Shown: positions 11,973 through 43,292 of the stretch, one piece after another
Layout of the letters: each line of letters begins with the position of its first letter
Position numbering within the stretch: the stretch's first letter is position 1
NCBI GenBank assembly: GCA_009692365.1
Contig: SHZJ01000022.1
Span: 1 to 54,343 of the forward strand
From: Gammaproteobacteria bacterium
GTDB taxonomy: Bacteria; Pseudomonadota; Gammaproteobacteria; Ga0077536
DNA length: 54,343 bases
Direction of reading: 5' to 3'
Translations under genes and position numbers: made by a program
The notes under the pieces: generated by a model
What the model was told of the DNA's origin: nothing
The model's input: the letters and a program-made list of their open reading frames with translations, nothing else
The model's database searches: none

Positions 11973-11982
11973 TGTCTTGGCG

Positions 11983-12981: not shown

Positions 12982-13748
12982 CGAAACATGTCCTCGGCCA
13001 GCGGGCGGATGAGGTCGAGCGCGGTTTGAGTGGCGTCCTCGGGCGCGAGTCCCTGGATGAGTACCGCCGGCGTGCGCTGGATACTCTCCCCCATGAGCAA
13101 GCAGGCGGTCGCGGCGAGGGAATCTGCCCGGTTGATCACGGTGACCTTGAGCTCGCGGCCGTAGAGGTCGTGGGTGCCGCGCAGGTCGTCCAGCACCGTG
13201 ATCCCCGCGCAGCCTATCGCCCCCCCGATGGTGCCCAGCCGCCAGGCGCGGTTCATGCTGTCGGCGATGATGACGCCCACCGCAACCCCGGTGCGGGCGA
13301 GGATGGCCGCGCGCAGCTGCGCCGCCGAGCGGTCCGGGTCAACGGGTAGCAAAAGCGCACATTCGCCGGCACCGTGATCGACGTTGGATTGATCGATGCC
13401 CGCGTGGGCGCCCACGTTGCCCAAGCGATGCCGCACGATGAGCACGCCCGGACGGGTGCGCAGGATTTCGGTGGACTCATCCAGAATCAGCTGCACCAGT
13501 CGCGGGTCTTTGTCGGTCTCCCGGGCCAGCTCCATCGCGCGCGGCGAGGCGGTCACGGTGTCCAGACGCACGAGCCGCCCTTCGGCCTTGGAGACGATTT
13601 TTTGCGCGACCACGAGGACATCCCCAGCGCCCAACACCAGCGGCGCACGGGCCAGCGCCGCAAGCAGGATGTCGGCCAAATCGTGCCCCGACTCAATCAT
13701 GGGGATATCCGGCAGCACCTGGAAACGCAGTCGTGAGGACGCTGACAT
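12978..13748 (-). CDS. cofE: F420-0:gamma-glutamyl ligase (CofE)
   Basis: A 256-residue ligase that adds L-glutamates in gamma linkage to F420-0 using GTP, completing coenzyme F420. It shows VVAQKIVSKAEGR, HAGIDQSNVD and GVIIADSMNRAWRLGTIGGAIG, all conserved in CofE and in the N-terminal half of mycobacterial FbiB. It is a stand-alone ligase: the C-terminal FMN reductase domain of FbiB, which reduces dehydro-F420-0 in mycobacteria, is missing. The ATG at 13748 (AGGAG about 11 nt upstream) was preferred to an extension from 13862, which has no family similarity. It is the first gene of the minus-strand run. Confidence 0.95.
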   Translation of the reverse strand: MSASSRLRFQVLPDIPMIESGHDLADILLAALARAPLVLGAGDVLVVAQKIVSKAEGRLVRLDTVTASPRAMELARETDKDPRLVQLILDESTEILRTRPGVLIVRHRLGNVGAHAGIDQSNVDHGAGECALLLPVDPDRSAAQLRAAILARTGVAVGVIIADSMNRAWRLGTIGGAIGCAGITVLDDLRGTHDLYGRELKVTVINRADSLAATACLLMGESIQRTPAVLIQGLAPEDATQTALDLIRPLAEDMFR

Positions 13749-14019
13749 GGAGAGGATCGCTCCTGGCGCGAGGCTGGGCGTCGCGGGGTTAATGAGGGGC
13801 TGGGGCGGGGTGTGCGATATTCCCCGCCAAGGGATTTCTGAAGTACCATCCGCGCGGTTCACCCGGCGGCCCGTTGCTAAATTATTCTACCCCTTCGGCG
13901 CGTGAACAATAGCCGCGGCGCGGCGCCCCCACCCCACCCCATTAGGGGCAAGTCCTTGCCACGCGCGCGCCGGCCAGCGCGCTAAAAAAAGCCCGCCGCG
14001 GCGTTACGGAGACCCCCAC
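13749..14019. promoter_or_regulatory. Divergent promoter region, F420 operon versus acyl-CoA operon
   Basis: This 271-bp non-coding gap separates the 5' ends of cofE (minus) and the first acyl-CoA dehydrogenase (plus), so promoters for both operons must lie here or just beyond. It contains an AT-rich patch (ctaaattattctac, 13877-13890) suitable for a -10 element and a palindromic GCGCGC-cggcca-GCGCGC just before a run of A. I could not assign exact -35/-10 pairs. Confidence 0.5.
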
Positions 14020-15696: not shown

Positions 15697-15736
15697 GCGC
15701 GCGGCCGCGCCCCACCGCTGAGAACGGAGTCCAGCC

Positions 15737-16957
15737 ATGCAGAATATTTTGAACGGGCTACGCATCGTAGAGGCCTCGGCGTTCATCGCCGCCCCCTTGT
15801 GCGGCATGACCTTGGCGCAACTGGGTGCCGACGTCATTCGTTTCGACCCCATCGGCGGCGGCATCGATTACCGCCGCTGGCCGGTCACGACGGACAACCG
15901 GAGCATTTACTGGGCGGAACTCAATAAAGGCAAGCGCTCGCTGGCGCTGGACCTCAAACATCCGCAGGCCCGCGAACTCGTCACCCGCCTCATCGCCCTC
16001 CCCGGCCCCAACGGCGGCATCCTCTCCACCAACCTGCCGGCCAAAGGCTGGCTGGCCTACGAAACCCTCTGTCAGCAGCGCGCCGACCTCATTGAGCTTG
16101 CGATCGTGGGCGACCGCCACGGCGGTAGCGCGGTGGACTACACGGTGAACGCCAAAGTGGGTTTCCCGGCGCTGACCGGGCCGCCGGACGACCAGCGGCC
16201 GGTCAATCACGTGCTGCCGGCGTGGGACATCGCGGCCGCCCTGCTCGCCGCCACCAGCCTGCTGGCGGCCCTGCGTTTTCGCGACCAAACCGGCCAGGGC
16301 CAACGCATCGACATGGCGCTGGCGGATGTGGCGCTCGCCATGGTGGGGCATCTGGGTTATGTGGGCGAACGCAAAATCAACGGCACCCAGCGCAGCCGCG
16401 GCGGCAATTACCTCTACGGTGCCTTTGGGCGCGATTTTCTAACCCACGAGGGCGAGCGGGTCATGGTGATGGCCATCTCCCCCAAAATGTGGAGCGGGCT
16501 GCTGGCGGCCACCGGCCTGGCCCCCGACATGGCGGCGTTGGGCGCACAATTGGGCTTAGACCTCGACTTGGAAGGCGCTCGTTACACCGCCCGGCAGGAG
16601 ATTGCCGCACTGCTGGAGGGCTGGATCGCGCGGCACCCGCTGGCGGCGGTGGCCACCGCCTTCGATGCCCACGGCGTGTGCTGGGGTAAATATCAGGCCA
16701 TGGCAGATTTAATCGACCACGATCCCGATTGCTCGCCGGCCAACCCCATCTATCATTGGGTAGAACAGCCAGACATCGGGACCTACCCGGTGGCGGGACA
16801 AGCCATGCACTTTAGCGCCGTGGCGCGCGCACCGGCCCGCCGTGCGCCGCGCTTGGGCGAGCACACCGATGAGATTCTCGCTGACCTGCTGGGCCTCGAC
16901 AGCGCCGAGATAGGCCGCCTCCACGACGCTGGCATCGTGGCCGGGGTCTGCCGTTAA
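15737..16957 (+). CDS. CaiB/BaiF family (class III) CoA-transferase
   Basis: A 406-residue class III CoA-transferase. It has the opening LNGLRIVEASAFIAAPLCGMTLAQLGADVIRFD, the NKGKRSLALDLKHP block and an AWDIAAALLAATSLLAALRFR helix near the active site. The usual catalytic Asp region (G-D) appears as PAWDIAAA, with the Asp kept. It probably loads CoA onto an organic acid ahead of the dehydrogenases of this operon. AACGGAG upstream supports the start. It is clearly distinct from the paralogue at 7558. Substrate unknown. Confidence 0.88.
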   Translation: MQNILNGLRIVEASAFIAAPLCGMTLAQLGADVIRFDPIGGGIDYRRWPVTTDNRSIYWAELNKGKRSLALDLKHPQARELVTRLIALPGPNGGILSTNLPAKGWLAYETLCQQRADLIELAIVGDRHGGSAVDYTVNAKVGFPALTGPPDDQRPVNHVLPAWDIAAALLAATSLLAALRFRDQTGQGQRIDMALADVALAMVGHLGYVGERKINGTQRSRGGNYLYGAFGRDFLTHEGERVMVMAISPKMWSGLLAATGLAPDMAALGAQLGLDLDLEGARYTARQEIAALLEGWIARHPLAAVATAFDAHGVCWGKYQAMADLIDHDPDCSPANPIYHWVEQPDIGTYPVAGQAMHFSAVARAPARRAPRLGEHTDEILADLLGLDSAEIGRLHDAGIVAGVCR

Positions 16958-16978
16958 ATTTGGGCTAAGGGTAAAACC

Positions 16979-18058
16979 ATGAGCAATGCACGACACGATA
17001 AATTTTCCGGCACCAAAGCCGTCGAGGCCGAATTGCAGCTAGACGTTGCGCGGCTTGAGCGCTACCTGCGCACGGCAATCGCCGGCTTCGAAGGCCCGCT
17101 CGAAATTCGCCGCTTCAAGGGCGGACAGTCCAACCCCACCTACCAACTCCTCACGCCCCAGCGCAACTACGTCCTGCGCCGCAAGCCCCCCGGCCCCCTG
17201 CTGCCCTCGGCCCACGCCGTCGACCGGGAATACGAGGTCATTCAGGCGCTCTGGAGCGCCGGCTACCCGGTGCCACGCCCCTACGCGCTGTGTCACGACG
17301 AGGGCATCATCGGCACGATGTTCTACGCGATGGAAATGGTCGAGGGCCGGGTGCTGTGGGATACCACGCTGCCCGACTCGACGCCCCCCGAGCGGGCCGA
17401 GATTTTCGACGCCATGCTCAGCGCGTTGGCGCGGCTGCAAACCATCGACTATCGCGCCATCGGGCTGACCGATTTTGGCAAACCCAGCGATTATTTCGCG
17501 CGCCAGATCAACCGCTGGACGAAAAATTACGTGGCCTCCGAGACCGACAAAATTCCCCTGATGGACCGCCTGAACTCCTGGCTGCCCGCCAACGTACCGG
17601 TGGAGGATTCGGTCAGCATCGTGCATGGCGACTACCGCATGGACAATATGATTTTTCACCCCACCGAATCCCGGGTCGTCGCCGTATTGGACTGGGAGCT
17701 CTCCACCATTGGCCATCCGTTTGGGGATTTCGCCTATCACTTGCTGCCTTGGTTGCTGCCCCAGATGGGCGAGCGGCTGAGCAGCCTGGGAGGGCTGGAC
17801 CTGCCAGCGCTGGGGATCCCCACGGAGGCGGCGTATATCGCGCGTTATTGCCAATTGACCGGGCGCCGGGAAATTCAGGGGCTGGACTACTATCGGGCTT
17901 ACACCCTGTGGCGGGTGGCGGCAATTTATCAGGGCATTATCAAGCGGGTACAAGAAGGCACGGCCGCCAGCGAGCACGCCCAGACCACTACGGAGTTGGT
18001 CAGCGAAATCGCTGAATTGGCGTGGCAGTTCGCGCGCCGCGCCGGCGCGCCGGCGTAA
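16979..18058 (+). CDS. APH-fold phosphotransferase family protein (ACAD10/11 N-domain-like)
   Basis: A 359-residue kinase-fold protein of the aminoglycoside phosphotransferase (PF01636) family. It has the catalytic loop VHGDYRMDNMIF and the metal-binding DWELSTIGHPFGD. The N-terminal RRFKGGQSNPTYQLL and YVLRRKPPGPLLPSAHAV blocks are typical of the subgroup fused to, or adjacent to, acyl-CoA dehydrogenases such as human ACAD10/11. In that subgroup a hydroxy-acyl-CoA is phosphorylated so that the hydroxyl can be eliminated. Lying immediately before two acyl-CoA dehydrogenases, it probably handles hydroxylated acyl-CoA intermediates rather than antibiotics. Confidence 0.88.
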   Translation: MSNARHDKFSGTKAVEAELQLDVARLERYLRTAIAGFEGPLEIRRFKGGQSNPTYQLLTPQRNYVLRRKPPGPLLPSAHAVDREYEVIQALWSAGYPVPRPYALCHDEGIIGTMFYAMEMVEGRVLWDTTLPDSTPPERAEIFDAMLSALARLQTIDYRAIGLTDFGKPSDYFARQINRWTKNYVASETDKIPLMDRLNSWLPANVPVEDSVSIVHGDYRMDNMIFHPTESRVVAVLDWELSTIGHPFGDFAYHLLPWLLPQMGERLSSLGGLDLPALGIPTEAAYIARYCQLTGRREIQGLDYYRAYTLWRVAAIYQGIIKRVQEGTAASEHAQTTTELVSEIAELAWQFARRAGAPA

Positions 18059-30774: not shown

Positions 30775-32375
30775 ACAGCACTGGCGTGGGGCTGGGCGTT
30801 TGGGCCGGCTTGGGCTTGTTCTTCGTGGGCCTGAGAATGCTGACAGCGCACCTGCGGCAACTGGGGGGCGGCAATTTGCAGACCCTGTTGGCCAGTTGGT
30901 TGGGACGCCCCCTCGCCCCGCAGTTGGTGGGGCTAACTTTTGGTGCGTTGACCCAGTCGACCAGCGCCGTCACGTTGATGACCTCAGGCCTCGTCCTCGC
31001 CGGGGCGCTCGTGCGAGAACGCGCGCTGCCGATGCTGGCGTGGGCCAATGTTGGCACCTCGGCACTGGTACGGTTAACGACCATCAACAGCCAGGCGCTG
31101 GTGCTGGGGCTGCTGGGCGCGACCGGGCTGGACTTTTTCTTGGGCTTTGAGCAATCCGAAAAATATCGGCATGCGCTCATGACGCTATGGGGTCTGGGCT
31201 TGTTGTTGTTCGGCTTGACGCTGCTCAAGCACAGCGTGGCGGCACTCGGTCCCGAGCCATGGATGCGTGCATTCGTCGAGTTTAGCGGCGCAGGAGTCGC
31301 AATCGCGTTGCTGGCGGGTTTCGTGATGGCCGTGGCGATGCAGTCTTCTTCCATCGTCACCGTGCTGGCCCTGCCGCTAGTGGTGGAAAGGCTGCTCGGT
31401 CTCGACCAAGCCCTGCTGCTGATTTATGGCGCCAGCGTCGGCTCAGGCTGCGCGGTGTTCTTGCTGGCGTCGGGGATGGAGGGCGTTTCGCGCCAGCTAT
31501 CCCTGTGCCTAGCGGCCTTGCGCGCCATCACGGCGCTGGCGTTGCTGGGGGCGTTTTTCTTTGAAAAAACGACCGGCGTCCCCCTCGTGCTGGCGCTGCG
31601 GGAGGCGCTGTCCCGAGCACCTGCGACGCAATGTGCAATGGCTTATTTGTTGGTCCAACTGCTGCTTGTGCTGACCAGCCAGATCTGCGCCGGCTGGCTC
31701 CTGGGGTACGCGAGACGCAGCGCGCCGCCGAGTGCGCTAGAGCGGCTCATGAAACCTCATTTTATCTTTGACGACGCTGCCGCCGACCCGCCCACGGCGT
31801 TGGCGCTGGTGGTCCTCGAGCAGCAGCGCTTGGTGAAGTTGCTGCCCGATTTTCTTGAGGATCTCCTGCCTCCCGACGAGCGCTCGCCCACCGCGATACC
31901 CATTGCCTTGCGCGCAGCGGCCAGTATCGCTATCGCGACGGAAATGGACTACTTTTTGCGCGCCACGCTGCAACAAAACCCCGGCCTTACCGACGCCGAG
32001 GAATTCTTCGTGGCGCGCGCCCAGCTCGACACGCTGCGGCCGCTGCAGAGCGCCTTACAGCAGTTTGTCGCTGAGCTACTGCTGGTGCCCAGCGCTGAAA
32101 GACCCGTTTTCACGGGCCATCTCGTCGCCGGCCTGCATGCAATTCTGATGGTCGCGGCTGACACCGCGGCGGGCGAGCCCGACGCGGCCCAGACGCTGCA
32201 TCTGCTCACCCACGAGCGCAGTGCGCTGCTGGAGCGGGTCCGCCACGACCTCTTGGACAACGTGACCAACGTCGCGGGGCGCGAATCCGCCTTGTCTGCG
32301 ACCCTCACTTTCGAACGGATCAGCTGGCTGCTGCGACGCCTAATGCCCGCTGCTAGCGCCAGCGCCGTCCCGTAA
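30771..32375 (+). CDS. Na+/Pi cotransporter family protein with C-terminal PhoU-like region
   Basis: A 534-residue protein. The N-terminal 330 residues have two inverted repeats of the Na/Pi cotransporter (NptA/PF02690) type, with TQSTSAVTLMTSGLVLAG in the first and MQSSSIVTVLALPLVVERLLGL in the second; the QS(S/T)S motif binds Na+ and phosphate. The C-terminal 200 residues are helical and PhoU-like. The ATG at 30771 overlaps the preceding frameshifted gene (ATGA). The 3' end overlaps a CrcB gene on the other strand by 23 bp. Confidence 0.92.
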   Translation: MNSTGVGLGVWAGLGLFFVGLRMLTAHLRQLGGGNLQTLLASWLGRPLAPQLVGLTFGALTQSTSAVTLMTSGLVLAGALVRERALPMLAWANVGTSALVRLTTINSQALVLGLLGATGLDFFLGFEQSEKYRHALMTLWGLGLLLFGLTLLKHSVAALGPEPWMRAFVEFSGAGVAIALLAGFVMAVAMQSSSIVTVLALPLVVERLLGLDQALLLIYGASVGSGCAVFLLASGMEGVSRQLSLCLAALRAITALALLGAFFFEKTTGVPLVLALREALSRAPATQCAMAYLLVQLLLVLTSQICAGWLLGYARRSAPPSALERLMKPHFIFDDAAADPPTALALVVLEQQRLVKLLPDFLEDLLPPDERSPTAIPIALRAAASIAIATEMDYFLRATLQQNPGLTDAEEFFVARAQLDTLRPLQSALQQFVAELLLVPSAERPVFTGHLVAGLHAILMVAADTAAGEPDAAQTLHLLTHERSALLERVRHDLLDNVTNVAGRESALSATLTFERISWLLRRLMPAASASAVP

Positions 32376-32778
32376 AAAAGCCGGCCGCCAGCGCGACCAA
32401 ACCGCCCAGCAAACTCGCACCCAGCACGCTCGCCGCCAGGCCTATCTGACCTTGTGCCAAGGCTAGGCTGGTCACCAGCATCCAAGTACTGAAGGTGGTG
32501 AGCGAACCACAAAACCCCACGCCGGCCCATAAGTACAGGCGTGGGCGAGCGGGTTTGGGGGGCAGGCCCGCGCCGATTAACAGACCCAGACCCAAGCAAC
32601 CCAGTAAATTGGCCACCAGATCCGCGCGGAGGGTGGCCGCCCAGACGGCCGAGGTCGGCGCGCCGACCAGCCCCGGCGTCAGCCCCTCCAAATACCAGCG
32701 CAACAGCGCACCGGGGATCGCCCCTGCGGCCACCAGAGCCAGTTCCGTCAGCTCAAGCTTGAGGGCCGTGGGCTTCAA
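32353..32778 (-). CDS. crcB: CrcB/Fluc fluoride channel, second copy
   Basis: A 141-residue four-helix membrane protein of the Fluc fluoride-channel family. It shows GAIPGALLRWYLEG, LVANLLGCLGLGLLIG (with the conserved Asn) and GFCGSLTTFSTWMLV, the fluoride-coordinating TTFS region with its central Na+ site. These channels work as antiparallel dimers and expel fluoride. The start overlaps the stop of the other CrcB by 4 bp. Linked pairs are usually heterodimer-forming halves. Confidence 0.93.
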   Translation of the reverse strand: MKPTALKLELTELALVAAGAIPGALLRWYLEGLTPGLVGAPTSAVWAATLRADLVANLLGCLGLGLLIGAGLPPKPARPRLYLWAGVGFCGSLTTFSTWMLVTSLALAQGQIGLAASVLGASLLGGLVALAAGFFTGRRWR

Positions 32779-33170
32779 GGCAAGTCACTCACGGCCAATC
32801 CGGCGGCGACCGCCAACAAGCCCAACAGCACGCTGGCCCCGCACAGCAGGGCCGCTTCACGCGGTGCCTCGGCCTGCAACAGCAGGAAAATTTCCGCCAT
32901 AAAAATGGAGAACGTACTCAAGCTGCCCAAAAAACCGCTGCCCAGTAGCAACAAGATTTGCGCCGCACCCGGACCGCAGCCGGGCGCCAGCCCCGCCAGT
33001 AAGCCCAACGCAAAGCTGGCCCCGACATTCACCCCCAAGGTGCTCCAGTGTTTCGCAGGCAGCATGGGTTCGAAATAGTTCACGAGTCGAAAACGCAGCC
33101 AAGCGCCCGGCACGGCCCCTAGGGCCACTAACAGGACGCTCTTAAGCACGCGGTTCCACCCACCCGCCAA
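32775..33170 (-). CDS. crcB: CrcB/Fluc fluoride channel, first copy
   Basis: A 131-residue Fluc-family protein with GAVPGAWLRFRLVN, the strongly conserved GVNVGASFALGLLAG and GSGFLGSLSTFSIFMAEI. It is similar in length but clearly diverged from its overlapping neighbour, as expected for two non-identical protomers of fixed opposite topology. It begins 9 bp after the repeat-protein gene on the same strand. I looked upstream for the crcB-motif fluoride riboswitch and did not see it. Confidence 0.92.
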   Translation of the reverse strand: MAGGWNRVLKSVLLVALGAVPGAWLRFRLVNYFEPMLPAKHWSTLGVNVGASFALGLLAGLAPGCGPGAAQILLLLGSGFLGSLSTFSIFMAEIFLLLQAEAPREAALLCGASVLLGLLAVAAGLAVSDLP

Positions 33171-33179: not shown

Positions 33180-33491
33180 TCACGGATCCCTCGCGCCGGC
33201 GGGTCCGGCTGCTGGCGGGCTGGTCTGCGCTGGGCCGTCCCAAACTTCCTCGTGCTCCGGCATCAGCGCACGACTAGCCCCGGGGCCGTCCCAAACTTCC
33301 TCGTGCTCCGGCATCAGCGCACGACTAGCCCCGGGGCCGTCCCAAACTTCCTCGTGCTCTGGCATCAGCGCAGGACTAGCCCCGGGGCCGTCCCAAACTT
33401 CCTCGTGCTCTGGGGTGAGCGCGGCGCCCTGCGCGACCCCGTTGGCCGCGAGCACCAGCAGAACCAGTGTAAGCCGCGATTTTTTCGTCAT
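33180..33491 (-). CDS. Secreted protein of four 17-residue repeats
   Basis: A 103-residue product. Residues 1-24 are a Sec signal peptide (MTKKSRLTLVLLVLAANGVAQGAA). The mature protein is almost entirely four copies of PEHEEVWDGPGASRALM, the last copy degenerating into a Pro/Ala tail. Each unit is acidic and has one His, one Trp and several Glu. No family was recognised. The repeats are nearly identical in DNA as well, so the array expanded recently or is kept homogeneous. It is the first gene of a three-gene unit with the CrcB pair, 9 bp apart. Confidence 0.7.
   Translation of the reverse strand: MTKKSRLTLVLLVLAANGVAQGAALTPEHEEVWDGPGASPALMPEHEEVWDGPGASRALMPEHEEVWDGPGASRALMPEHEEVWDGPAQTSPPAAGPAGARDP
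33232..33427. repeat. 51-bp tandem repeat, about four copies, inside the secreted protein gene
   Basis: Units begin at 33232, 33283, 33334 and 33385 with gggccgtcccaaacttcc. The first two are identical across 51 bp; the third differs at a couple of bases and the fourth is partial. The period of 51 keeps the reading frame of the 17-residue protein repeat. Confidence 0.9.
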
Positions 33492-33717: not shown

Positions 33718-34605
33718 GTGGCGAATTCGATACACGTAGATTTATTGGGGACCGAAACCCACTTTATCGATACCGGGAAATATCGGACCCGGTGTATTTC
33801 GGCCCCGGGTGCGGGCGAACACCTTTTCATGCTGCACGGCGGCGGCGGGCACGCCGAAACCTATTCGCGCAATCTCCTCACGCTGGGGCAGGTCTGCCAA
33901 CCGCACGCCATCGATTTTATCTGGCACGGCATGTCCTCGCGCCCGCCTTATTCCGACCACGGACCGACGACCCGCACGCACTGGTTAAGTCAATTCACCG
34001 ACCAGCTATTGAATCTGATGGACCATTTGGGCATCGAAAAAGCGGCCGTAGAGGGCGAATCGTTGGGTGGCTGGATCGCCTTCGACATGGCGATTAATCA
34101 TCCGGACCGCACCTCCAGAGTCATCCTCAACACGGCCTGGGGCATGACGCTCGACCCCAGCAAAGTCCATGAAGGGGCTAGCGATCTAAAGGCCTTGCTC
34201 GACACCTCGATGAACGCGCTGCTCAATCCCACCCGCGAATTATTGCGCAAGCGCCTCGATTGGCTGATGCCGCTGGGCGGGGTGACCGAGGAACTAGTGG
34301 ATTTGCGGCTGGCGCTGTGGTCGATTCCTGAAACCCGTCGCGCGCTGGTGGAATATTACGAGCGCCTGTTCGCCCCGAACATCACGCAGTTTTATTTCAC
34401 CGAGGCGCAAATCGCCACCATCCGCACGCCCGCCTTGGTGTTATGGACCGACCGCAACCCCATCCACGGCACCGACGCCGCCCACCGGCTGATCGAACTC
34501 ATGCCACACGCCCAACTGCACATCATGGCCGGTTGCGCCCACTGGCCGCAGTGGGAGCGTCCGGTGGAACACGATACCGCGGTGGGGAATTTCATGCGGT
34601 CTTGA
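33718..34605 (+). CDS. Alpha/beta hydrolase, meta-cleavage product hydrolase-like
   Basis: A 295-residue alpha/beta hydrolase. The oxyanion segment is LHGGGGHAETY; the nucleophile elbow is GESLGG (Ser115); the acid is in LWTDRNPIHG; the catalytic His is in GCAHWPQWE. The fold and context match carbon-carbon bond hydrolases (BphD/CarC type) that cleave ring-opened dienoates made by extradiol dioxygenases. It starts with GTG behind GGAGGAAG. It is the first gene of the Rieske/extradiol operon. Confidence 0.87.
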   Translation: MANSIHVDLLGTETHFIDTGKYRTRCISAPGAGEHLFMLHGGGGHAETYSRNLLTLGQVCQPHAIDFIWHGMSSRPPYSDHGPTTRTHWLSQFTDQLLNLMDHLGIEKAAVEGESLGGWIAFDMAINHPDRTSRVILNTAWGMTLDPSKVHEGASDLKALLDTSMNALLNPTRELLRKRLDWLMPLGGVTEELVDLRLALWSIPETRRALVEYYERLFAPNITQFYFTEAQIATIRTPALVLWTDRNPIHGTDAAHRLIELMPHAQLHIMAGCAHWPQWERPVEHDTAVGNFMRS

Positions 34606-34637
34606 TCCGCTACACTGTTTTACCTCGGAGAAACCCT

Positions 34638-35981
34638 ATGAACACCAGCCCGCCCGTGCGCCGCCAACCGGGTAGCCCGCGCTTAAATACGGTGAGCGCA
34701 GAGCGCACCAACGACGCCTCGACGCAAAGCCAATACCAGCCTTACAAGGAGGCCGCGTGGGGGTTCATCAATCACTGGTATCCGGCCTTGTTCAGCGAGG
34801 AAATCCCCGAAGGGCACGTCGAGGGGATCCAGATCTGCGGGGTGCAAATCGTGCTGCGTCGGGTGCACGGCAAAGTGCTGGCGCTGAAAGACCAGTGCGT
34901 GCATCGGGGCGTGCGCCTGTCGGCGAAGCCCCTGTGCTTCAACGATAAAACGATCACCTGCTGGTACCACGGTTTCACCTACGATCTGGCCAGTGGCGCT
35001 CTGACAACGATTGTTGGCAATCCGGACGACCCACTCATCGGCACCACCGGGCTGACCACCTACCCGGTAGAGGAAATCGCCGGGATGGTGTTTGTGTTCG
35101 TGCGCGAAGACCAATACCCGGACGCCGACGTGCCGCCGCTGGCGCACGACCTGCCGGTGCGTTTCCCCACCAGCAGCGAGCGCTTTCCGCATCCGCTGTG
35201 GCCGGCGGCGCCCAGTCTGCTGGATCCCGCAGCGGTGGGTCTGGGGATCCACCGCACGGGCGAATCCAACTGGCGCATCGCCTGCGAGAATGGTTTCGAT
35301 AACGCGCATATTCTGGTCCATCAGGACAACACTATCGTGCAGGCCCTGAACTGGGTGCTGCCGCTAGGGATCCGGCCGGTCAGCGATGACTGCATTACGC
35401 TGATCGAGGACGAGGACGGGCCCAAAGGGCTGATGCAGTGGCTGTTTTCCGACCGCTGGGAAGCGATTTTGGAAAACAAAGAGCTGGATGTGAAAGTGGA
35501 AGGCCTCAACGGCCGGTTCTACCGTACCTCCTGCGTGCTGCCGGGGGTGCTGATGGTGGAAAACTGGCCCGAGGAACACATCGTCCAATATGAATGGTAT
35601 GTGCCGATCACCGACGACACCTACGAGTACTGGGAAGTGCTGGTGAAAGTCTGCCCGACCCCGGCGGCGCGGGAGAAGTTTAGCTATCGCTTCGAGCGCG
35701 TCTACAAGCCCCTGTGCCTGCACGGCTTCAACGATTGTGATCTGTATGCGCGCGAAGCGATGCAGGAGTTTTATGCCGATGGCACCGGCTGGGATAACGA
35801 ACAACTGGTCGCCACCGACGTCTCTGCCATTACCTGGCGCAAAGTGGCCTCGCGCTACAACCGCGGCATCGCCAAACCCGGCAAGGGTGTGGAAGGGGCG
35901 ACCAAAACCTCCAGCATTCGCCTGCGACGCGTCGCGCAGGGCCGCAAACCCGGTTATTTCGTCGAAAAAATTAAGGATTGA
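34638..35981 (+). CDS. Rieske non-haem iron oxygenase, CarAa-like terminal component
   Basis: A 447-residue terminal oxygenase. The Rieske [2Fe-2S] ligands are C87-x-H89 (QCVHRG) and C108-x-x-H111 (CWYHGF). The mononuclear iron site is ENGFDNAHILVH (bridging Asp221, His224, His228) with an Asp near 368 in DCDLYAREAM. From INHWYPALFSEEI to the C-terminus the block order and spacing follow CarAa, the oxygenase of carbazole 1,9a-dioxygenase, which attacks an angular position beside the ring nitrogen. Similar enzymes can also hydroxylate or demethylate, so the exact reaction is open. The ATG at 34638 excludes an unconserved extension. Confidence 0.93.
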   Translation: MNTSPPVRRQPGSPRLNTVSAERTNDASTQSQYQPYKEAAWGFINHWYPALFSEEIPEGHVEGIQICGVQIVLRRVHGKVLALKDQCVHRGVRLSAKPLCFNDKTITCWYHGFTYDLASGALTTIVGNPDDPLIGTTGLTTYPVEEIAGMVFVFVREDQYPDADVPPLAHDLPVRFPTSSERFPHPLWPAAPSLLDPAAVGLGIHRTGESNWRIACENGFDNAHILVHQDNTIVQALNWVLPLGIRPVSDDCITLIEDEDGPKGLMQWLFSDRWEAILENKELDVKVEGLNGRFYRTSCVLPGVLMVENWPEEHIVQYEWYVPITDDTYEYWEVLVKVCPTPAAREKFSYRFERVYKPLCLHGFNDCDLYAREAMQEFYADGTGWDNEQLVATDVSAITWRKVASRYNRGIAKPGKGVEGATKTSSIRLRRVAQGRKPGYFVEKIKD

Positions 35982-35990
35982 TGACCACCC

Positions 35991-37019
35991 ATGAGCCTCG
36001 CTAACGGCCATCGCGTGACCTTACGTTTTCGCGATGGCGTGGAGCAGGTCGTGCGGGTCGGCGCCGGCCAGACCATTCTGGAGGCGGGCCTTGCGCAGCA
36101 GGCGCCGCTGCTCTCGCAGTGCCGCAGCGGTAGCTGCGCCACCTGCAGCGCGCTCTTGCGCAGCGGCACGGCGGCGATGCGCGCTGGCCAGCCCTCGGTG
36201 CTGTTGCGGCACGAGGCCGACGCGGGCCAGCGCCTGTTGTGTCTCACCGAAGCGCAGGGCGAGTGCAGCTTTGATCTCGCCTACGACAGCCGCGCGGGGA
36301 GCCGGCGCACCCAGACCGCGCGCGCCTTCGTGGATGCGGTGGCGCACATCGCCCCCGACGCCGTGCGGCTAACGCTAGAGCTGGCCGAGGGCGATTGGTT
36401 GGATTTCCTGCCCGGTCAATTTGTGCAGCTAGCGGTGCCGGGTAGCGGGGAACAGCGGCGCTATTCCATCGCCAGCACGCGGGCGCAGCTGCCGCGCATC
36501 GAATTGCTCATTCGTCTGCTACCGGGCGGGGCGATGTCCGATTATCTGCGGCAGCGCGCGGCCCCGGACGACGTCATCACGCTGACCGGGCCTTATGGCG
36601 GTTTTTTCCTGCGCGAAGGCGTCCGCGCACCGCATATTCTGGTCGCCGGCGGCACCGGGCTGGCGCCGCTGCTGGCGATGCTCGATACGCTGCGCACGCA
36701 ACCCGGACGCCGCGCACCGCTGCTCTTGAGCTTTGGCTGCGCCAGTGAGGAAACGCTGTTTTATCGTGAGGAATTGGCGCTCCGGCGCCACTGGATGCCG
36801 CAGCTGGATCTGCGAGTGTCCATCGAGCGGGGCGTGGCGGCAGCAGATTTGCGCATCGGCAACCCGGTGGCGGCCATCGGCGCGGCCGATGTCCAAGACC
36901 CCGCCACCGTGGCCTATCTGTGCGGCCCGCCCGGTTTGATAGAAGCCGGCCACGACCACCTCGTCGCCTTGGGGGTGGCCGCGCAGCATATTTACGCCGA
37001 GCAATTCGTACCAAGCTAA
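35991..37019 (+). CDS. Oxygenase reductase: plant-type [2Fe-2S] ferredoxin + FAD/NAD(P) domains
   Basis: A 342-residue reductase. The N-terminal ferredoxin has CRSGSCATC and a fourth Cys in LLCLTE. A ferredoxin-NADP reductase module follows: RRYSIAST (FAD), GGTGLAPLLAM (NAD(P)) and YLCGPPGLIEA near the C-terminus. It passes electrons from NAD(P)H to the adjacent Rieske oxygenase, 9 bp upstream. No separate Rieske-type ferredoxin gene is in the operon, so this looks like a two-component system in which the reductase's own cluster feeds the oxygenase. Confidence 0.93.
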   Translation: MSLANGHRVTLRFRDGVEQVVRVGAGQTILEAGLAQQAPLLSQCRSGSCATCSALLRSGTAAMRAGQPSVLLRHEADAGQRLLCLTEAQGECSFDLAYDSRAGSRRTQTARAFVDAVAHIAPDAVRLTLELAEGDWLDFLPGQFVQLAVPGSGEQRRYSIASTRAQLPRIELLIRLLPGGAMSDYLRQRAAPDDVITLTGPYGGFFLREGVRAPHILVAGGTGLAPLLAMLDTLRTQPGRRAPLLLSFGCASEETLFYREELALRRHWMPQLDLRVSIERGVAAADLRIGNPVAAIGAADVQDPATVAYLCGPPGLIEAGHDHLVALGVAAQHIYAEQFVPS

Positions 37020-37037
37020 CCACCGGGAGTCACTTGC

Positions 37038-37913
37038 ATGGGAATCAGCAGTTTGGGCTACGTCGCCCTCAACGTCAGCGATCTGGCTGCGTGGCTGGAT
37101 TTAACGACCAGCGTATTTGGTCTGGAGGTGCGCCGCCGCGCGGACGGCCCGGCGGTGGATTTGCGCATGGATGCCTACCATCATCGCTTGAGTCTGTACC
37201 CGGCACCCACCGATTCGCTGGCCGTCGTGGGTTGGGAAGTCGCCTCGCTGGGCGAGCTCGAGGTGCTGCACGCAGCGCTCCAAGCCCACGGTATTGTCCT
37301 GACGCGCGGTTCCCCCGAGCGCTGCCACGAACGCCGCGTCAAGGCGCTGTACAGCTTTGTCGAGCCCCACATCGGCATCCCCACGGAAATCTATTACGGC
37401 CCGCTCATTTCCAATACACCTTTCACGCCTAGCCGCGGCATTAGTGGCTATAACACGGCCAACGGTCTGGGCATGGGTCACCTCGTGTTCTGGGTCCGGG
37501 ACCTGCAGGCGACCCTCGATTTCTATCTCAAGGTGCTGGGTTTCAGCATTTCGGACTACATCGCCTGGGACGACAACGATGCGATATTCCTGCACTGCAA
37601 TCCGCGCCATCATTCGCTCGCCATCATGGCCGAGCGCCCCGGGCGGCCGGCCGGCGTGCTCAATCACATCATGTTGGAAGCCCAATCACGCGACGATGTT
37701 GGCTACGGCTACGACATCGTGCGCGACAAGGGGATCCCGGTGATGATCGAACCGGGCAAGCACAGTAACGACCACATGCAGAGTTTTTATCTGCGTACGC
37801 CCTCGGGTTTCTGGATGGAGTACGGCTACGGCGCGTTGCTGGTGGGCCCAGATTGGGAAATCAAAAATTACGACCGGCCCATGTTGTGGGGACACCGCAT
37901 GGTTGGGCCGTGA
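37038..37913 (+). CDS. Type I extradiol ring-cleavage dioxygenase (BphC/VOC family)
   Basis: A 291-residue two-domain vicinal-oxygen-chelate dioxygenase. The Fe(II) ligands are His148 (GMGHLVFWV), His210 (LNHIMLEA) and Glu261 (FWMEYG), nearly identical in spacing to His146/His210/Glu260 of BphC. The signature KHSNDHMQSFYLRTPSGFWMEYG also holds the catalytic Tyr and His positions. It should open a catechol-type ring next to the diol, producing the substrate for the hydrolase at 33718. The N-terminal domain is the non-catalytic copy. It follows the reductase by 18 bp. Confidence 0.94.
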   Translation: MGISSLGYVALNVSDLAAWLDLTTSVFGLEVRRRADGPAVDLRMDAYHHRLSLYPAPTDSLAVVGWEVASLGELEVLHAALQAHGIVLTRGSPERCHERRVKALYSFVEPHIGIPTEIYYGPLISNTPFTPSRGISGYNTANGLGMGHLVFWVRDLQATLDFYLKVLGFSISDYIAWDDNDAIFLHCNPRHHSLAIMAERPGRPAGVLNHIMLEAQSRDDVGYGYDIVRDKGIPVMIEPGKHSNDHMQSFYLRTPSGFWMEYGYGALLVGPDWEIKNYDRPMLWGHRMVGP

Positions 37914-39241
37914 CCGCCCTGCATGCCCTGTCACTGGTGGAGGCTGCCGCGAGCATCGCGGCGGGCCACTGTCGCGCCGAAGAACTGGTGAGCGCCTGCC
38001 TGGCGCGCATTTCGGCGCGCGACCCGGCGGTGCACGGGTGGGCCTACCTTGACCCCGCACGGGCGCTGCGCGAGGCGCGGGCGCGCGATGCAAGCACCAG
38101 CGCGCGCGGGCCGCTGCATGGGGTGCCTTGCGGGGTGAAAGACATTATCGACGTCGCGGGCATGCCCACCACCCACGGTAGTGCCGCCTTCGCCCAGCAC
38201 TACCCCACCACGACGGCCGAGTGCGTAGAGCGCCTGCAGCGCGCGGGCGCCATTGTGCTGGGCAAAACCATCACCACTGAATTTGCGACCTATCACCCCG
38301 GTCCCACCCGCAACCCGCGCGACCCGCGGCATACGCCCGGGGGTTCTTCTAGTGGCTCTGCCGCCACCGTCGCCGACGCGCAAGTGCCGCTGGCGCTGGG
38401 CACCCAAACCGCAGGCTCGATTATTCGCCCCGCGAGTTTTTGCGGCGTGCTGGGTTTTAAGCCCAGTTTCGGTCGCTATCCGCTGCGCGGCGTGCTGCCC
38501 ACCGCGACGAGTCTGGATACTTTGGGCTTTTTTGCCCGCACGCTCGCCGACGTCGTCCTGGTCGACGCCGTGCTCGCCGCCACGCCGACCGCCACTCCGA
38601 CCGCCGCCCCCCACCCGGGGCCGCTCACGGTGGGACTTTGTCGCAGCCCCGCCTGGTCGCAGGCGAGCGCGGCGATGCGCGCGGCGTGGCAGGATTTTGG
38701 GGCCGGGCTGGCGGCGCGCGGCCTACGGGTCGTCGAGCGCGAACTGCCCGCCCTCTTCGCCGACTTGCTCGACGCCCAGCAGGTCTTGCATCGCCACGAA
38801 GCCTGGCGGGCGCTGGGCGAGATCCGCCGCCTGCACACGGCAGTCGTCAGCCAGGCTTTTGCCGACTTCATCGACAGCGGCGCACGTGAGACCCCTGCGA
38901 GGTATGCGGCCGCGCTGGCACTGCAAGCGCAGTGCCGCGCCGAACTGCGCGCCGTGTTTGCGGGGGTGACGGTACTGCTGACGCCCGCTGCACCCGACGT
39001 CGCCCCGGCTGGCTTGGCCGCGACCGGCGACCCGATCTTCAGCCGCCTGTGGACCGCGCTCGGCACTCCCTGCCTGGGTTTCCCGGGCGCGTGGAGCGCG
39101 CCGGGACTCCCCTTGGGGCTGCAGCTCATCGGACCCTTACACGGCGACCAAGATTTTCTCGCCGCGGCCCGCCACGTGCTCGCGCTCACCGCACCCACCC
39201 CCTTACCTGCGGAGGATAGACCCCATGGAACCCACGCTTAG
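37910..39241 (+). CDS. Amidase signature family hydrolase
   Basis: A 443-residue amidase of the Ser-Ser-Lys family. It shows GVPCGVKDIIDVAGMPTTHGS (catalytic Lys), PGGSSSGSAATVADAQVPLALGTQTAGSIIRPASFCGVLGFKP (cis-Ser and nucleophilic Ser), all intact. It hydrolyses a carboxamide, sometimes an ester. I start at the GTG at 37910, which overlaps the extradiol gene's stop (GTGA), in preference to an upstream frame inside that gene. In this operon it suggests that the aromatic substrate, or a cleavage product, contains an amide. Confidence 0.92.
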   Translation: MTALHALSLVEAAASIAAGHCRAEELVSACLARISARDPAVHGWAYLDPARALREARARDASTSARGPLHGVPCGVKDIIDVAGMPTTHGSAAFAQHYPTTTAECVERLQRAGAIVLGKTITTEFATYHPGPTRNPRDPRHTPGGSSSGSAATVADAQVPLALGTQTAGSIIRPASFCGVLGFKPSFGRYPLRGVLPTATSLDTLGFFARTLADVVLVDAVLAATPTATPTAAPHPGPLTVGLCRSPAWSQASAAMRAAWQDFGAGLAARGLRVVERELPALFADLLDAQQVLHRHEAWRALGEIRRLHTAVVSQAFADFIDSGARETPARYAAALALQAQCRAELRAVFAGVTVLLTPAAPDVAPAGLAATGDPIFSRLWTALGTPCLGFPGAWSAPGLPLGLQLIGPLHGDQDFLAAARHVLALTAPTPLPAEDRPHGTHA

Positions 39242-40550
39242 CGCCCCCTTCAGCGCCGCACAACAACGGGCCTATGCGGCCGCCTGCGCCTGCCTCGATG
39301 TCGAGCGCCTGAAACAATTGTTGTTCGCCATCACCGACATCCACAGCCCGACCGGTGCCACGCGGGACGTGTGCGAGTATTTGGTGGGGCACATGCGGAC
39401 GATCGGGCTGAAACCCACCTACGACGCGATGACCGACATCTCGGGCAACCTCTTGGGCGAGAAGCGCGGTTCGGGTGGCGGCGCCACCCTGTTGCTCTAC
39501 GCCCCTATCGACACCCATCTGGAGGGCGATGCCAGCGATTTCCCGTGGGCCGGTCCACACCAGTTCGTCGATATGCGCCCGCAGGCCACCCAAGTGGGCG
39601 ACTGGATTTATGGCCTGGGTTCGTCCAATCCCAAAGCCATGGCGGCGTCACTGCTAGAAGTCGCGCGCGCGTTGATCGAATCCGGCGCGGCGCTGCTGGG
39701 GGATTTGAATGTCGGTTTTGCGGACGGTGGCATGCCGGTCACGATCCCCGCCCGCGGCAATGCGGGGATGTCGCACGGCGTGCACCATTTGTTGAATCGC
39801 GGCATGGCACCGGATTTCGCCATCATCATGAAACCCTGGAATTGGGTGTATCACGAGGAGCCCGGCATGGGCTGGTTCAAGATTATGGTACAGGGCACTC
39901 TGGGCTATGCCGGCGTGCCGCGTGGGCTGCCCGCCTTCCGGAGCGCCGTGGTGCCGGCGGCCACGGTGATTTTGGAATTGGAGCAGTGGTTGCTCGAGTA
40001 CGCCGTGCGCAACACCTCGGGGGTTATCTGCCCGCACGGCTGGATTGCCGGCGTGCGCTCGGGCTGGCCGGAACGCCCCGCGTTTCCGTCGGCGTTGACC
40101 GAGATTTTTTTCGACGTGCGGATCAATCCGCGCACCACCCCGGCGAATGTCAAAGCCCAATTCGCGGGGTTTATGGCCGAACTCGCCGCCCGTCATCCCG
40201 ACTTCGAGCTGGATTGGGAAATGTACGGTTCGGTACCCGGCGGCACCACCGACCCCAGCAACTGGATAATCCAGTCAGCGCGCCGAGGTTGGGAACACAT
40301 CGAGGAACGCGCTTACCCCGAGCCCGACCTGCTGGGGGGGCAAACCGATGGGGCCGCGTTGCGGCGGATGGGCGTACCGACCGCGCGCATCGGCTGGCCG
40401 TGGCCGGCGGAGGGGTCGCCCGAACCCATCGGCGAGGGCTTGGGCGGGATGGGTGCGACCTATGTGCCCGATTTGATGCCCTGCCTGCACAAAATACTGT
40501 ATGCCGCCATCGACACCCTGATGCGCCCGCGCGGGGAGTTAGGCTTATAG
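39225..40550 (+). CDS. M20-fold (ArgE/DapE-like) protein with degenerate metal site
   Basis: A 441-residue protein with the layout of M20 peptidases/deacylases, including the inserted dimerisation domain (about 215-330) and a GGQTDGAALRRMGVPTARIG block typical of the family's C-terminal Asp/Gly motif. Most canonical metal ligands are changed. HxD becomes PID (94-96), keeping only the catalytic-position Asp96; the GxxDMKG Asp becomes Asn135 (GSSNPKA); the EE pair reads ADGG near 166; the GEPT Glu is replaced near 202. It may have lost hydrolysis, use another ion, or do new chemistry. It overlaps the amidase end by 17 bp and closes the operon. Confidence 0.82.
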   Translation: MEPTLSAPFSAAQQRAYAAACACLDVERLKQLLFAITDIHSPTGATRDVCEYLVGHMRTIGLKPTYDAMTDISGNLLGEKRGSGGGATLLLYAPIDTHLEGDASDFPWAGPHQFVDMRPQATQVGDWIYGLGSSNPKAMAASLLEVARALIESGAALLGDLNVGFADGGMPVTIPARGNAGMSHGVHHLLNRGMAPDFAIIMKPWNWVYHEEPGMGWFKIMVQGTLGYAGVPRGLPAFRSAVVPAATVILELEQWLLEYAVRNTSGVICPHGWIAGVRSGWPERPAFPSALTEIFFDVRINPRTTPANVKAQFAGFMAELAARHPDFELDWEMYGSVPGGTTDPSNWIIQSARRGWEHIEERAYPEPDLLGGQTDGAALRRMGVPTARIGWPWPAEGSPEPIGEGLGGMGATYVPDLMPCLHKILYAAIDTLMRPRGELGL

Positions 40551-40620: not shown

Positions 40621-41046
40621 TTACTCGGGCGCCGTGGGCTCGCTCATCTGCTTGGTCATGGCCAAGCAGTTTTTGTGGTCGTGACGGCGATAGACCACGC
40701 TGTCCATCATCCCGCGCACCAGATAAATCCCCAAACCACCCACCGGGCGCTCCTCCAGCGGGACGGTGAGGTCTGGGGGCTCTTTGGCGAGCGGGTCGAA
40801 CGCCGAGCCGTCGTCGATGATCGTGAGGGTCACCATCCCCGCGACGTAGTTTAGCGATACCTCAACGGTGATACCCGCCGCGCTTTGGGGCACCGAGTAC
40901 GACGCGACGTTGAGAAAAATTTCTTCGAGGGCGAGTTCAAACGCATACGCGTGCGCCGCCGGCAGTTCGTGGATGGCCCAAAATTCCTGCATAAAACAGG
41001 TCAATGACTCAATTTTGTCCGCTTCGGCGGCCACGATTTTCTGCAT
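40621..41046 (-). CDS. Anti-sigma-factor-type ATP-binding protein (HATPase_c, RsbW-like)
   Basis: A 141-residue GHKL-fold ATP-binding protein. It has the N-box FELALEEIFLNVASYS, the G1 box IIDDGSAFDP, and GGLGIYLVRGMMD (G2). Small proteins of this type phosphorylate anti-anti-sigma factors or sequester sigma factors. No STAS-domain or sigma-factor gene is adjacent, so its target is elsewhere. It is convergent with the M20-like gene and divergent from the MoxR gene. Confidence 0.88.
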   Translation of the reverse strand: MQKIVAAEADKIESLTCFMQEFWAIHELPAAHAYAFELALEEIFLNVASYSVPQSAAGITVEVSLNYVAGMVTLTIIDDGSAFDPLAKEPPDLTVPLEERPVGGLGIYLVRGMMDSVVYRRHDHKNCLAMTKQMSEPTAPE

Positions 41047-41269
41047 CTTTAAAGCTCAAGACTTAAGGATAAATCTCACCCGCGCCGAGCGTGCACGCGG
41101 TGCTCAATAGCGGCCCAGCGCAACCCACGCCCGGAACACTAACCCCTCGACGGTAGGCCGGGCTAGTGGGAGCGTGGGCCCGCTGCCAAAGCCGCGTTCC
41201 GCCGCCTCGCCGCTGGGCGCGCACGCTCGTAAACTAGCCCCTACCGTAGCGGCGCAACAAAGGAACCCC

Positions 41270-42172
41270 ATGGAACCTAGCTCTTCTCCCTTTAGCAGCA
41301 TCCCCGAGGTGCAAGCCCTGTTTGCCAGCGACCATTACATCGCCGACCGGCCACTCGCGCTCACCCTGAAACTCGCGGTCGACCTGCAAAAGCCGGTCCT
41401 GCTGGAGGGCGAAGCGGGGGTTGGAAAAACCGAAGTCGCCAAAGTGCTGGCCCGCGCGCTAGACACCCCGCTCATTCGCCTGCAGTGCTACGAAGGGCTC
41501 GATGCGAGCACCGCGCTCTACGAATGGAACTATGCCCGGCAAATTCTCCACATCCGGATGGCGGAGCAGAATCCCGCGGCTCGTGCCAACTTGGAACAGA
41601 CTATTTTTGACGACCGATTCTTGCTCAATCGCCCGGTGTTAGCGGCGATTCGGCATCCCGGCCCGCGCCCGGCCGTGCTCCTGATCGACGAAATTGACCG
41701 TGCGGATGAAGAATTCGAGGCTTTTCTGCTGGAGGTCCTTTCTGACTATCAGGTGAGCGTGCCGGAAATTGGGACCTTTAAAGCCACGCTCCCGCCCTAT
41801 GTCATTCTCACCTCCAACCGCACGCGGGAGCTCAACGACGCCCTGAAGCGGCGCTGTTTATATCTTTGGGTGGATTACCCCAGCGTGCAGAAGGAACGGG
41901 AGATCATCGCCCAGCGGGTCCCGGCGTTAGACCCGTCGCTGCGCGCGGCGATCGCCCGCACCATGCAGGCGCTGCGGGCAATCGATTTCTACAAACGCCC
42001 CGGTATCGCCGAGTCCCTGGACTGGAGTCGTGCGTTGTTGGGCCTGGGGGTGCAGACCCTGAGCGCCGAGGTGCTGCTGGAAACCGCCGGCGTGGTGCTG
42101 AAATATCACGACGACATTGAGCGGCTGCGCGCCCTGGACGTGGCGGCGCTCATTACCGGGCCGGGGGCTTAA
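41270..42172 (+). CDS. MoxR-family AAA+ ATPase
   Basis: A 300-residue AAA+ ATPase. Walker A is GEAGVGKTE, Walker B is VLLIDEIDRAD, and the sensor region is VILTSNRTRELNDALKRRCLYLW. MoxR ATPases act as chaperones that insert metals or assemble enzyme complexes, nearly always with a VWA-domain partner such as the next gene. The ATG at 41270 has AAGGAAC just upstream; the frame from 41174 lacks similarity. Closest by architecture to CoxD, but no CO-dehydrogenase genes are present. Confidence 0.92.
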   Translation: MEPSSSPFSSIPEVQALFASDHYIADRPLALTLKLAVDLQKPVLLEGEAGVGKTEVAKVLARALDTPLIRLQCYEGLDASTALYEWNYARQILHIRMAEQNPAARANLEQTIFDDRFLLNRPVLAAIRHPGPRPAVLLIDEIDRADEEFEAFLLEVLSDYQVSVPEIGTFKATLPPYVILTSNRTRELNDALKRRCLYLWVDYPSVQKEREIIAQRVPALDPSLRAAIARTMQALRAIDFYKRPGIAESLDWSRALLGLGVQTLSAEVLLETAGVVLKYHDDIERLRALDVAALITGPGA

Positions 42173-42176
42173 GGCC

Positions 42177-43292
42177 TTGCACGATGTCCCCTCCTCACCC
42201 GGGGAGCAAATCACCGCACGCACCCTCGAGTTTTGCCGCGAGTTGCGGGCCGGCGGCCTGGCCATCACACCGGCCCGGGTGATCGATGCGCTGCGCGCGC
42301 TGCCCCATGTCGATTGCACGCTACCCGAAGACTTCCGCCTAGCGCTGCGGCTCAATCTCGCTAGCAGCCACGCCGACGAAATAATCTTCAACCGCGTTTT
42401 TAATCGGTATTTTCTCGGCCAAGACGATGGGCACAGCCCGTCGAGCGGGATCCGGGGCGAGTCCGCGCGGGGCCAGCTCGGCCACCAGCCTAAAGCCTTG
42501 GATCAAGCGGTGGCAACCGCGCCGGAACACGCCAGCACCCAAGCGCACGCGCGGGCGGTCGATCTGACAAACCGCTGGGATCCGGCGGCCCCACCGCTGG
42601 CGCAAATCATTCGCGAGTTGGCCCGGCGGCTGGCCACGCGCCCCAGCCGACGCTATCAAAGCGGGCGTCACGGCGACCGGGTCGATTTGCGCCGCTCGCT
42701 GCGGCGCAGCGCGCGCTACGGTTTGGAACTGCTGGGGCTGGCCTACGCCAAACCCAAACGGCGGCGCACGCGGTTGGTCATGCTGTGCGATGTCTCGGGC
42801 TCGATGGATGCCTTCAACCCGTTTTTGCTGCAGCTCTTGTTTGGGCTTGCACAGGCACTTCGCAATTCCCGCACGTTCGTGTTTAGTACCCAGATCTCGG
42901 ACATCACGGCGGCTTTACGCCGGCGCTCGAGCGCCGACGCCCTGCGCGAAATTGCCAATACCGTGCGTCACTGGTCGGGTGGCACCGACATCGGCGCGGC
43001 CTTGGCGCAACTCAACCGGCAGGTGCTGCGCACCGGTTCGGCCAGTGCCACCGTTGCCGTCATCATCAGTGACGGCTACGACAATGGTCCTATCGAACGC
43101 ATCGACCACGAGATGGCCGCGCTGGGTCGACGCGTGGCGAAAGTGGTGTGGATTAATCCCATGTATGGGGCGAGCACTTTTCAGGTCCGGGCCGCGGGGC
43201 TGCGGGCCGCGCTGCCGCACGTGGACCATTTCCTACCGGCCTTCGACGCCCGTGCCCTCAAAGTGCTGGTGCGTGAACTGGCGCGGGTGTAG
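42177..43292 (+). CDS. VWA-domain protein (CoxE-like), partner of the MoxR ATPase
   Basis: A 371-residue protein with a C-terminal von Willebrand A domain: the MIDAS motif CDVSGSMDAF, TDIGAALAQL and IISDGYDN. The N-terminal half is Arg-rich and helical, as in CoxE. It is the expected partner of the preceding AAA+ ATPase. The start is uncertain: no ATG or GTG is in frame near the beginning, and the best candidates are TTG at 42177 (just past the MoxR stop) and TTG at 42117 inside the MoxR gene. Translational coupling would fit either. Confidence 0.87.
   Translation: MHDVPSSPGEQITARTLEFCRELRAGGLAITPARVIDALRALPHVDCTLPEDFRLALRLNLASSHADEIIFNRVFNRYFLGQDDGHSPSSGIRGESARGQLGHQPKALDQAVATAPEHASTQAHARAVDLTNRWDPAAPPLAQIIRELARRLATRPSRRYQSGRHGDRVDLRRSLRRSARYGLELLGLAYAKPKRRRTRLVMLCDVSGSMDAFNPFLLQLLFGLAQALRNSRTFVFSTQISDITAALRRRSSADALREIANTVRHWSGGTDIGAALAQLNRQVLRTGSASATVAVIISDGYDNGPIERIDHEMAALGRRVAKVVWINPMYGASTFQVRAAGLRAALPHVDHFLPAFDARALKVLVRELARV

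Follow-up and report, generated by a model that had tools for sequence, protein, structure and literature searches.

Quinolines are common N-heterocyclic pollutants, and the loss of nitrogen along the route by which they are degraded has been described chemically. OxoO of Pseudomonas putida 86 is the 8-monooxygenase of the 8-hydroxycoumarin branch of quinoline degradation. As proposed in the accessible part of one source, that route leads from 2-hydroxyquinoline to 2,8-dihydroxyquinoline, then to 8-hydroxycoumarin with release of NH4+, and on to 2,3-dihydroxyphenylpropionate (PMC9029321); the available portion of another has XenA of P. putida 86 reducing 8-hydroxycoumarin during quinoline degradation (PMC5519977). 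In the open-licence literature we found neither a tested gene for the step at which nitrogen is lost en route to 8-hydroxycoumarin or 2,3-dihydroxyphenylpropionate nor a tested assignment of the amidase, the M20-like gene or the BphC-type ring-cleavage variant described here. These belong to a group of six genes at 33718..40550 of a 54,343-nucleotide stretch of DNA (contig SHZJ01000022.1 of the Gammaproteobacteria bacterium assembly GCA_009692365.1), the whole of which we call the window. The group comprises an OxoO-type oxygenase with five partner genes and probably degrades 2-oxoquinoline (2-quinolinone) or a close relative. Both the pathway and its oxygenase step are already known; what would be new is a candidate enzyme family within it, that of the M20-like protein.

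Among described systems, OxoO/OxoR of P. putida 86 resembles the locus in its oxygenase, which is 72.5% identical and falls on the same side of the tree, and in the type of its reductase. The window differs in its compact six-gene order, its BphC-type dioxygenase and its own C-C hydrolase, in an operon without a Mo-hydroxylase gene. Carbazole 1,9a-dioxygenase and the car operons share with it only the Aromatic_hydrox (PF11723) superfamily; they lie on the other side of the tree, at 41% identity, and have a different ring-cleavage enzyme and different electron carriers. The M20-like protein is best compared with 5-nitroanthranilate aminohydrolase (5NAA-A; PDB 5k8m-5k8p). Both have Asn-x-Lys in place of the classical M20 Asp-x-Lys, whereas the His of the H-x-D motif and Arg289 of 5NAA-A become Pro94 and Ala286 in the window protein, for which a non-nitro aryl amine is the predicted substrate. 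Finally, the expected lower pathway may be like the mhp-type 3-(2,3-dihydroxyphenyl)propionate pathway. A LigB-type dioxygenase gene is present in 12 of 80 OxoO loci, whereas the window has an extradiol dioxygenase of the VOC fold.

Organisation of the gene cluster

All six plus-strand open reading frames (ORFs) are present and intact in the ORF listing, with starts at GTG 33718, ATG 34638, ATG 35991, ATG 37038, GTG 37910 and ATG 39225. Their families, assigned with Pfam and NCBIfam, matched those named in an initial annotation made from the letters of the sequence:

33718..34605, plus strand: alpha/beta hydrolase, predicted C-C (meta-cleavage product) hydrolase (PF00561, 63 bits)
34638..35981, plus strand: Rieske oxygenase of the OxoO type, predicted 2-oxoquinoline 8-monooxygenase (Rieske and Aromatic_hydrox PF11723)
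35991..37019, plus strand: ferredoxin-FAD-NAD reductase, OxoR-type partner (Fer2, FAD_binding_6 and NAD_binding_1)
37038..37913, plus strand: type I (VOC fold) extradiol dioxygenase (BphC_D1 and glyoxalase fold)
37910..39241, plus strand: amidase-signature hydrolase, predicted lactam opener (PF01425, 267 bits, with the ORF taken from 37853)
39225..40550, plus strand: M20-fold protein with its metal-site motifs replaced, candidate aromatic aminohydrolase (deaminase) (sub-threshold M20)

With the corrected starts the intergenic gaps are 32, 9, 18, -4 and -17 bp, confirming the range of -17 to 32 bp given initially, and the dioxygenase stop and amidase start share a GTGA overlap. The six co-directional genes are likely to form one operon.

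A GTDB scan with one genome per species yielded 191 relatives, of which the best 80 were kept; these are the loci behind all locus counts given here. Neighbouring genes were tabulated by tblastn, and the gene counts are lower bounds, many contigs being cut. This gene-neighbourhood search, which the initial annotation had recommended, found the identical six-gene set in identical order in 12 of the 80 loci, and since the order recurs in this way the set is not a chance assembly. The residues that we take to be catalytic in each family were located by motif, and the counts of their conservation include the window copy. These residues are intact. The initial view of a single aromatic ring-opening cluster is supported.

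Affiliation of the oxygenase and reductase

The best match of the oxygenase in the PDB is 1z01, 2-oxo-1,2-dihydroquinoline 8-monooxygenase (789 bits, E 1e-236), whereas the CarAa entries score at most 292.3 bits. By global alignment its identity to OxoO (72.5%) compares with 41.3-41.4% to three CarAa proteins, the third of which (Acinetobacter) is labelled CarAa by similarity. In a maximum-likelihood tree of 92 rows, rooted at the midpoint and unsure for long rows and for the long join between its two sides, a branch with support 99/96 separates CarAa from the window oxygenase, OxoO and every protein of the 80 loci. The phylogeny proposed at the outset thus groups the protein with OxoO and apart from CarAa, and membership of CarAa was rejected on tree position and identity; the original description as CarAa-like stands at the level of the PF11723 superfamily, but not for the closest relative. 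We therefore predict, from sequence comparison, an OxoO-type enzyme hydroxylating 2-oxoquinoline at C8. The dihydroxylation originally envisaged is not expected, because the nearest characterised protein, OxoO, is a monooxygenase. Nor does the statement that no described pathway fits survive for this step, which is part of a quinoline degradation route already described, that through 8-hydroxycoumarin. The expectation of an N-containing lactam as substrate is supported.

Counting residues from 34632, two codons 5' of the ATG at 34638, the Rieske Cys/His residues C89/H91/C110/H113, the iron histidines H226 and H230, and D370 are conserved in 84 of 84 sequences and D368 in 78 of 84; of the two aspartates, D370 is the presumed iron ligand. 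The reductase is MmoC/BenC-like, below the NCBIfam cut-off, and its gene occurs in 73 of the 80 loci. Two Pseudomonas loci (L062 and L073) are the nearest to OxoO in the tree (94/80), and both have an amidase and an M20-like gene near the oxygenase.

Several other oxygenase sequences deserve mention in their own right. A Rieske protein at 3667-4827 of L099 (G431), 51% identical to that of the window, falls between the OxoO and CarAa groups on a long branch. Second OxoO-type copies occur inside one locus (L018, L030) or within one strain (the Sphingobium of L010 and L013). Two metagenome-assembled genome records titled Klebsiella pneumoniae (L077 and L008) hold the window's gene set, with oxygenases 94% and 82% identical respectively, and look mislabelled.

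The M20-like protein and its association with OxoO

The initial annotation called the last gene product a degenerate M20 protein, and this is upheld. It scores 19.9 bits against a gathering score of 24.6 for PF01546, and in alignment with a canonical M20 protein of the same genome ADMK, DEE and GEP correspond to SNPK, DGG and MKP; this alignment is weak (8 bits, residues 124-316) and the last His position lies outside it. These motifs hold the presumed canonical di-metal ligands and general-base Glu. On the sub-threshold score and the replaced metal-site motifs, a function as an M20 peptidase was rejected. The nearest relative, both by sequence and by predicted fold over the full length, is 5NAA-A at about 23% identity, whose H-x-D aligns with P-I-D. 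Residues P94, N135, G168, G169 and K203 are invariant in 67 of 67 copies, and Arg284, two residues before Ala286, is kept in 66 of 67. The homologue clusters listed, at least 120 in number, are 68-93% identical to it; labels among them are M20 metallopeptidase, acetylornithine deacetylase and hypothetical.

The M20-like protein is tightly tied to OxoO-type oxygenases. Its gene lies near the oxygenase in 66 of the 80 loci, and when 13 of the 14 others were searched genome-wide, 12 proved to have one (65-79% identity, one being a 117-residue piece at a contig end); the genome of L011, searched whole, has no M20-like gene, and L004 fell outside the search. An OxoO-type oxygenase is thus accompanied by an M20-like protein in 78 of 80 cases. 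Within a genus sample of 249 genomes the two occur in exactly the same five, on different contigs in two and about 60 kb apart in one. A second genus sample (149 genomes) has the M20-like protein in nine and an oxygenase of at least 70% identity in seven (11 with any match at E 1e-60), six having both. Two of the three M20-only genomes are explained by cut contigs, one ending inside an OxoO-like gene, and one (L091) is real. Among 72,556 plasmid records a single one has a 60%-plus match to either protein, and it holds both; across 369 genomes of the class, the M20-like protein was found only in the window's own genome. The L091 stretch (9794-17273; same genus as the genome of L018) also carries a TonB receptor and an adjoining gene with a styrene-monooxygenase-A-type domain.

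Amidase, ring cleavage and lower pathway

The best PDB match of the amidase is malonamidase E2 (223 bits), and its Lys and Ser residues are intact in 14 of 14 sequences. The window type occurs in 18 loci and a second type in 47, together 65 of the 80. Many loci hold a further amidase; the copy at 16946-18394 of L066 scores above the NCBI cut-off for indoleacetamide hydrolase (602 vs 532 bits).

The dioxygenase is predicted to be a type I extradiol enzyme other than BphC itself: its best PDB match is BphC 1han (192 bits), while its score of 280.7 lies below the cut-off of 366.45 for the BphC equivalog TIGR03213. The earlier view that ring cleavage is BphC-type rather than CarB-type is supported. 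H148/H210/E261 and H192/H242/D245/Y251 are conserved in 45 of 45 sequences, and 2,3-dihydroxycinnamate or a relative is the predicted substrate. A VOC dioxygenase of the window type (at least 45% identity) is found in 20 of the 80 loci and any VOC dioxygenase (at least 30%) in 44. A LigB-type representative, from L028, passes the NCBI cut-off as 3-carboxyethylcatechol 2,3-dioxygenase, and a hydratase representative, from L041, as 2-oxopent-4-enoate hydratase; with single representatives tested, this points to 2,3-dihydroxyphenyl C3 acids as the substrates of ring cleavage.

The alpha/beta hydrolase has its best PDB matches among HsaD/BphD-type enzymes (about 80 bits), with Ser115/Asp245/His275 kept in 18 of 18 sequences and homologues 68-93% identical in 17 of the 80 loci. 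Elsewhere in the genome, contig 39 encodes catechol 2,3-dioxygenase, 2-hydroxymuconic semialdehyde dehydrogenase, 4-hydroxy-2-oxovalerate aldolase and acetaldehyde dehydrogenase, plus a hydratase just under its cut-off (397.4 vs 408.8).

A gene of the Asp/Glu-hydantoin racemase family lies near OxoO in 36 of the 80 loci. The idea that it is a maleate isomerase, with maleate as the C4 product, was dropped, since among PDB entries it comes closest to hydantoin and allantoin racemases and fits none of the NCBIfam models at E 1e-10. The window's own genome has two homologues elsewhere (L105 and L106), about 60% identical.

Proposed pathway and alternative explanations

To yield a catechol from 8-hydroxy-2-oxoquinoline, the lactam must first be opened and the aryl nitrogen lost. 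In the pathway that we propose, the OxoO-type oxygenase and its reductase would hydroxylate C8 to give 8-hydroxy-2-oxoquinoline, the lactam of which the amidase would hydrolyse to (Z)-2-amino-3-hydroxycinnamate. The M20-like protein would then exchange the aryl amine for a hydroxyl group, releasing ammonium and producing (Z)-2,3-dihydroxycinnamate. The operon has one intact amidase and one relative of a hydrolytic aryl deaminase, the M20-like protein, and we therefore give the opening of the lactam to the first and the deamination to the second. (Z)-2,3-dihydroxycinnamate could lactonise to 8-hydroxycoumarin, and this may be why the latter is the compound reported. Cleavage of the catechol ring would fall to the BphC-type enzyme. 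From its product the alpha/beta hydrolase would release 2-hydroxypentadienoate and a C4 diacid, and the catechol meta pathway of contig 39 could finish the former. It is possible, though we put it forward tentatively, that the M20-like protein is the first member of a widespread aromatic deaminase family lacking the M20 metal site. It would be the enzyme dedicated to releasing nitrogen in the 8-hydroxycoumarin route, common to Pseudomonas-, Burkholderia-, Thauera- and sphingomonad-type bacteria regardless of their ring-cleaving enzyme.

A number of observations weigh against this scheme. A PF20256 search of the window's own genome, which found three Mo-hydroxylases, gave no clear quinoline 2-oxidoreductase: one is nearest the CO-dehydrogenase type (475 bits, vs 437 to QorL), another nearest 4-hydroxybenzoyl-CoA reductase, and the third, a fragment interrupted by an in-frame stop, is tied between QorL (229) and CO-dehydrogenase (227). 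The substrate may therefore be a 2-quinolinone of other origin or a substituted one. Neither amidase type is present at 50% identity in 15 of the 80 loci, partly due to cut contigs; a VOC dioxygenase also occurs in 8 of the 12 LigB loci, and neither kind of dioxygenase lies within the stretch in 32 of the 80. Arg289 of 5NAA-A, mutated in the intermediate-bound structure 5k8p, aligns with Ala286 (Ala in 63 of 67 copies), and because this arginine is replaced and the metal-site motifs are absent, the mechanism of 5NAA-A is not simply transferable; its nitro-activated substitution is, moreover, chemically easier than the deamination of a non-nitro amine. Both genus samples were built around genomes with OxoO, and the species are related, so the counts are not independent; genes on separate contigs may have been parted only by breaks in the assembly. 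L091 has the M20-like, amidase and dioxygenase genes and no OxoO match at E 1e-60, which suggests that these three form a module downstream of hydroxylation. Finally, the accessible part of one source credits a dioxygenase, 'hdo', with opening the pyridine ring of 2,8-dihydroxyquinoline and releasing its nitrogen, giving neither sequence nor assay (PMC11945285).

Such a dioxygenase would accord with the same pathway under a different division of labour, in which the substrate of the M20-like protein is the lactam or the lactone 8-hydroxycoumarin, and the loss of nitrogen is spontaneous or due to the amidase or to a later or oxygenolytic enzyme. Amide bonds are what ordinary M20 proteins are known to hydrolyse, the nearest solved relative of the amidase, malonamidase E2, is itself an amide hydrolase, and the neighbours of the M20-like gene (within 400 bp on the same strand, in 66 loci) are OxoR in 49 cases, an amidase of either main type in 33 and the racemase-like gene in 20. 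We nevertheless judge this arrangement unlikely: the motifs of the M20 hydrolytic site are replaced in all 67 copies, the closest relative of the M20-like protein in sequence and fold is a deaminase, and lactam opening is more simply explained by an intact amidase-signature enzyme. Rather unlikely, too, is another or substituted bicyclic lactam in place of quinoline-derived 2-quinolinone, such as an alkyl- or carboxy-2-quinolinone, or 2,8-dihydroxyquinoline from 8-hydroxyquinoline. The lack of a clear quinoline 2-oxidoreductase and the gene content of L091 would suit it, and the window oxygenase falls in a 23-row set of its own kind in the tree. Four of 20 OxoO-bearing genomes also have no PF20256 match at E 1e-40, but this search is too generic to decide and several of these genomes are metagenome-assembled; the identity of the oxygenase to an enzyme known for 2-oxoquinoline argues the other way.

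An undescribed pathway with an angular dioxygenase of the CarAa type, acting on a carbazole-like compound or acylated aromatic amine as first suspected, now appears very improbable. It could draw on the shared PF11723 domain and the 41% identity to CarAa, and BphC-type cleavage with a C-C hydrolase would also suit biaryl pathways; tree and identity, however, put the oxygenase with OxoO. In three CarAa-bearing stretches the oxygenase is followed by small and larger meta-cleavage genes (two annotated AmmeMemoRadiSam B, one 'subunit of meta cleavage enzyme'), a hydrolase and a small 2Fe-2S protein, with neither amidase nor M20 gene annotated in what is an incomplete gene table, whereas the six genes of the window include no small and large meta-cleavage subunits and no separate ferredoxin.

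For the proposed degradation of 2-oxoquinoline, the conserved pair of amidase and M20-like protein that accompanies the oxygenase means that two proteins and a single substrate would suffice to test how nitrogen is lost. Should the M20-like protein be a deaminase, a familiar hydrolase fold would have had its catalytic site reworked for aryl C-N cleavage, which matters for enzyme evolution and biocatalysis, and the names of many supposed peptidases would be corrected.

Flanking features

Scans for promoters and terminators gave 1 and 5 sites, respectively, compared with 1.5 and 6.0 in shuffled sequence, and are not used as evidence here. About 100 bases 3' of the last gene, at 40648-40669, a nine-pair hairpin followed by five T could be a terminator, although such sites are not above shuffles. 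Farther downstream, at 41174-43292, lie a MoxR-type AAA ATPase and a CoxE-type VWA protein, a CoxD/CoxE-like pair that was considered as a Mo-enzyme helper of the operon; the near-identical L077 gave the only match to it next to the operon, and it is treated as unlinked. Upstream, a 51-bp tandem repeat (33232-33410; 3.5 copies, 98% match) lies within the minus-strand ORF 33180-33491, which encodes a repeated 17-residue unit after an apparent signal peptide, and two neighbouring genes of the CrcB fluoride-channel family occupy 32353-33170 on the minus strand, with a 4-base overlap.

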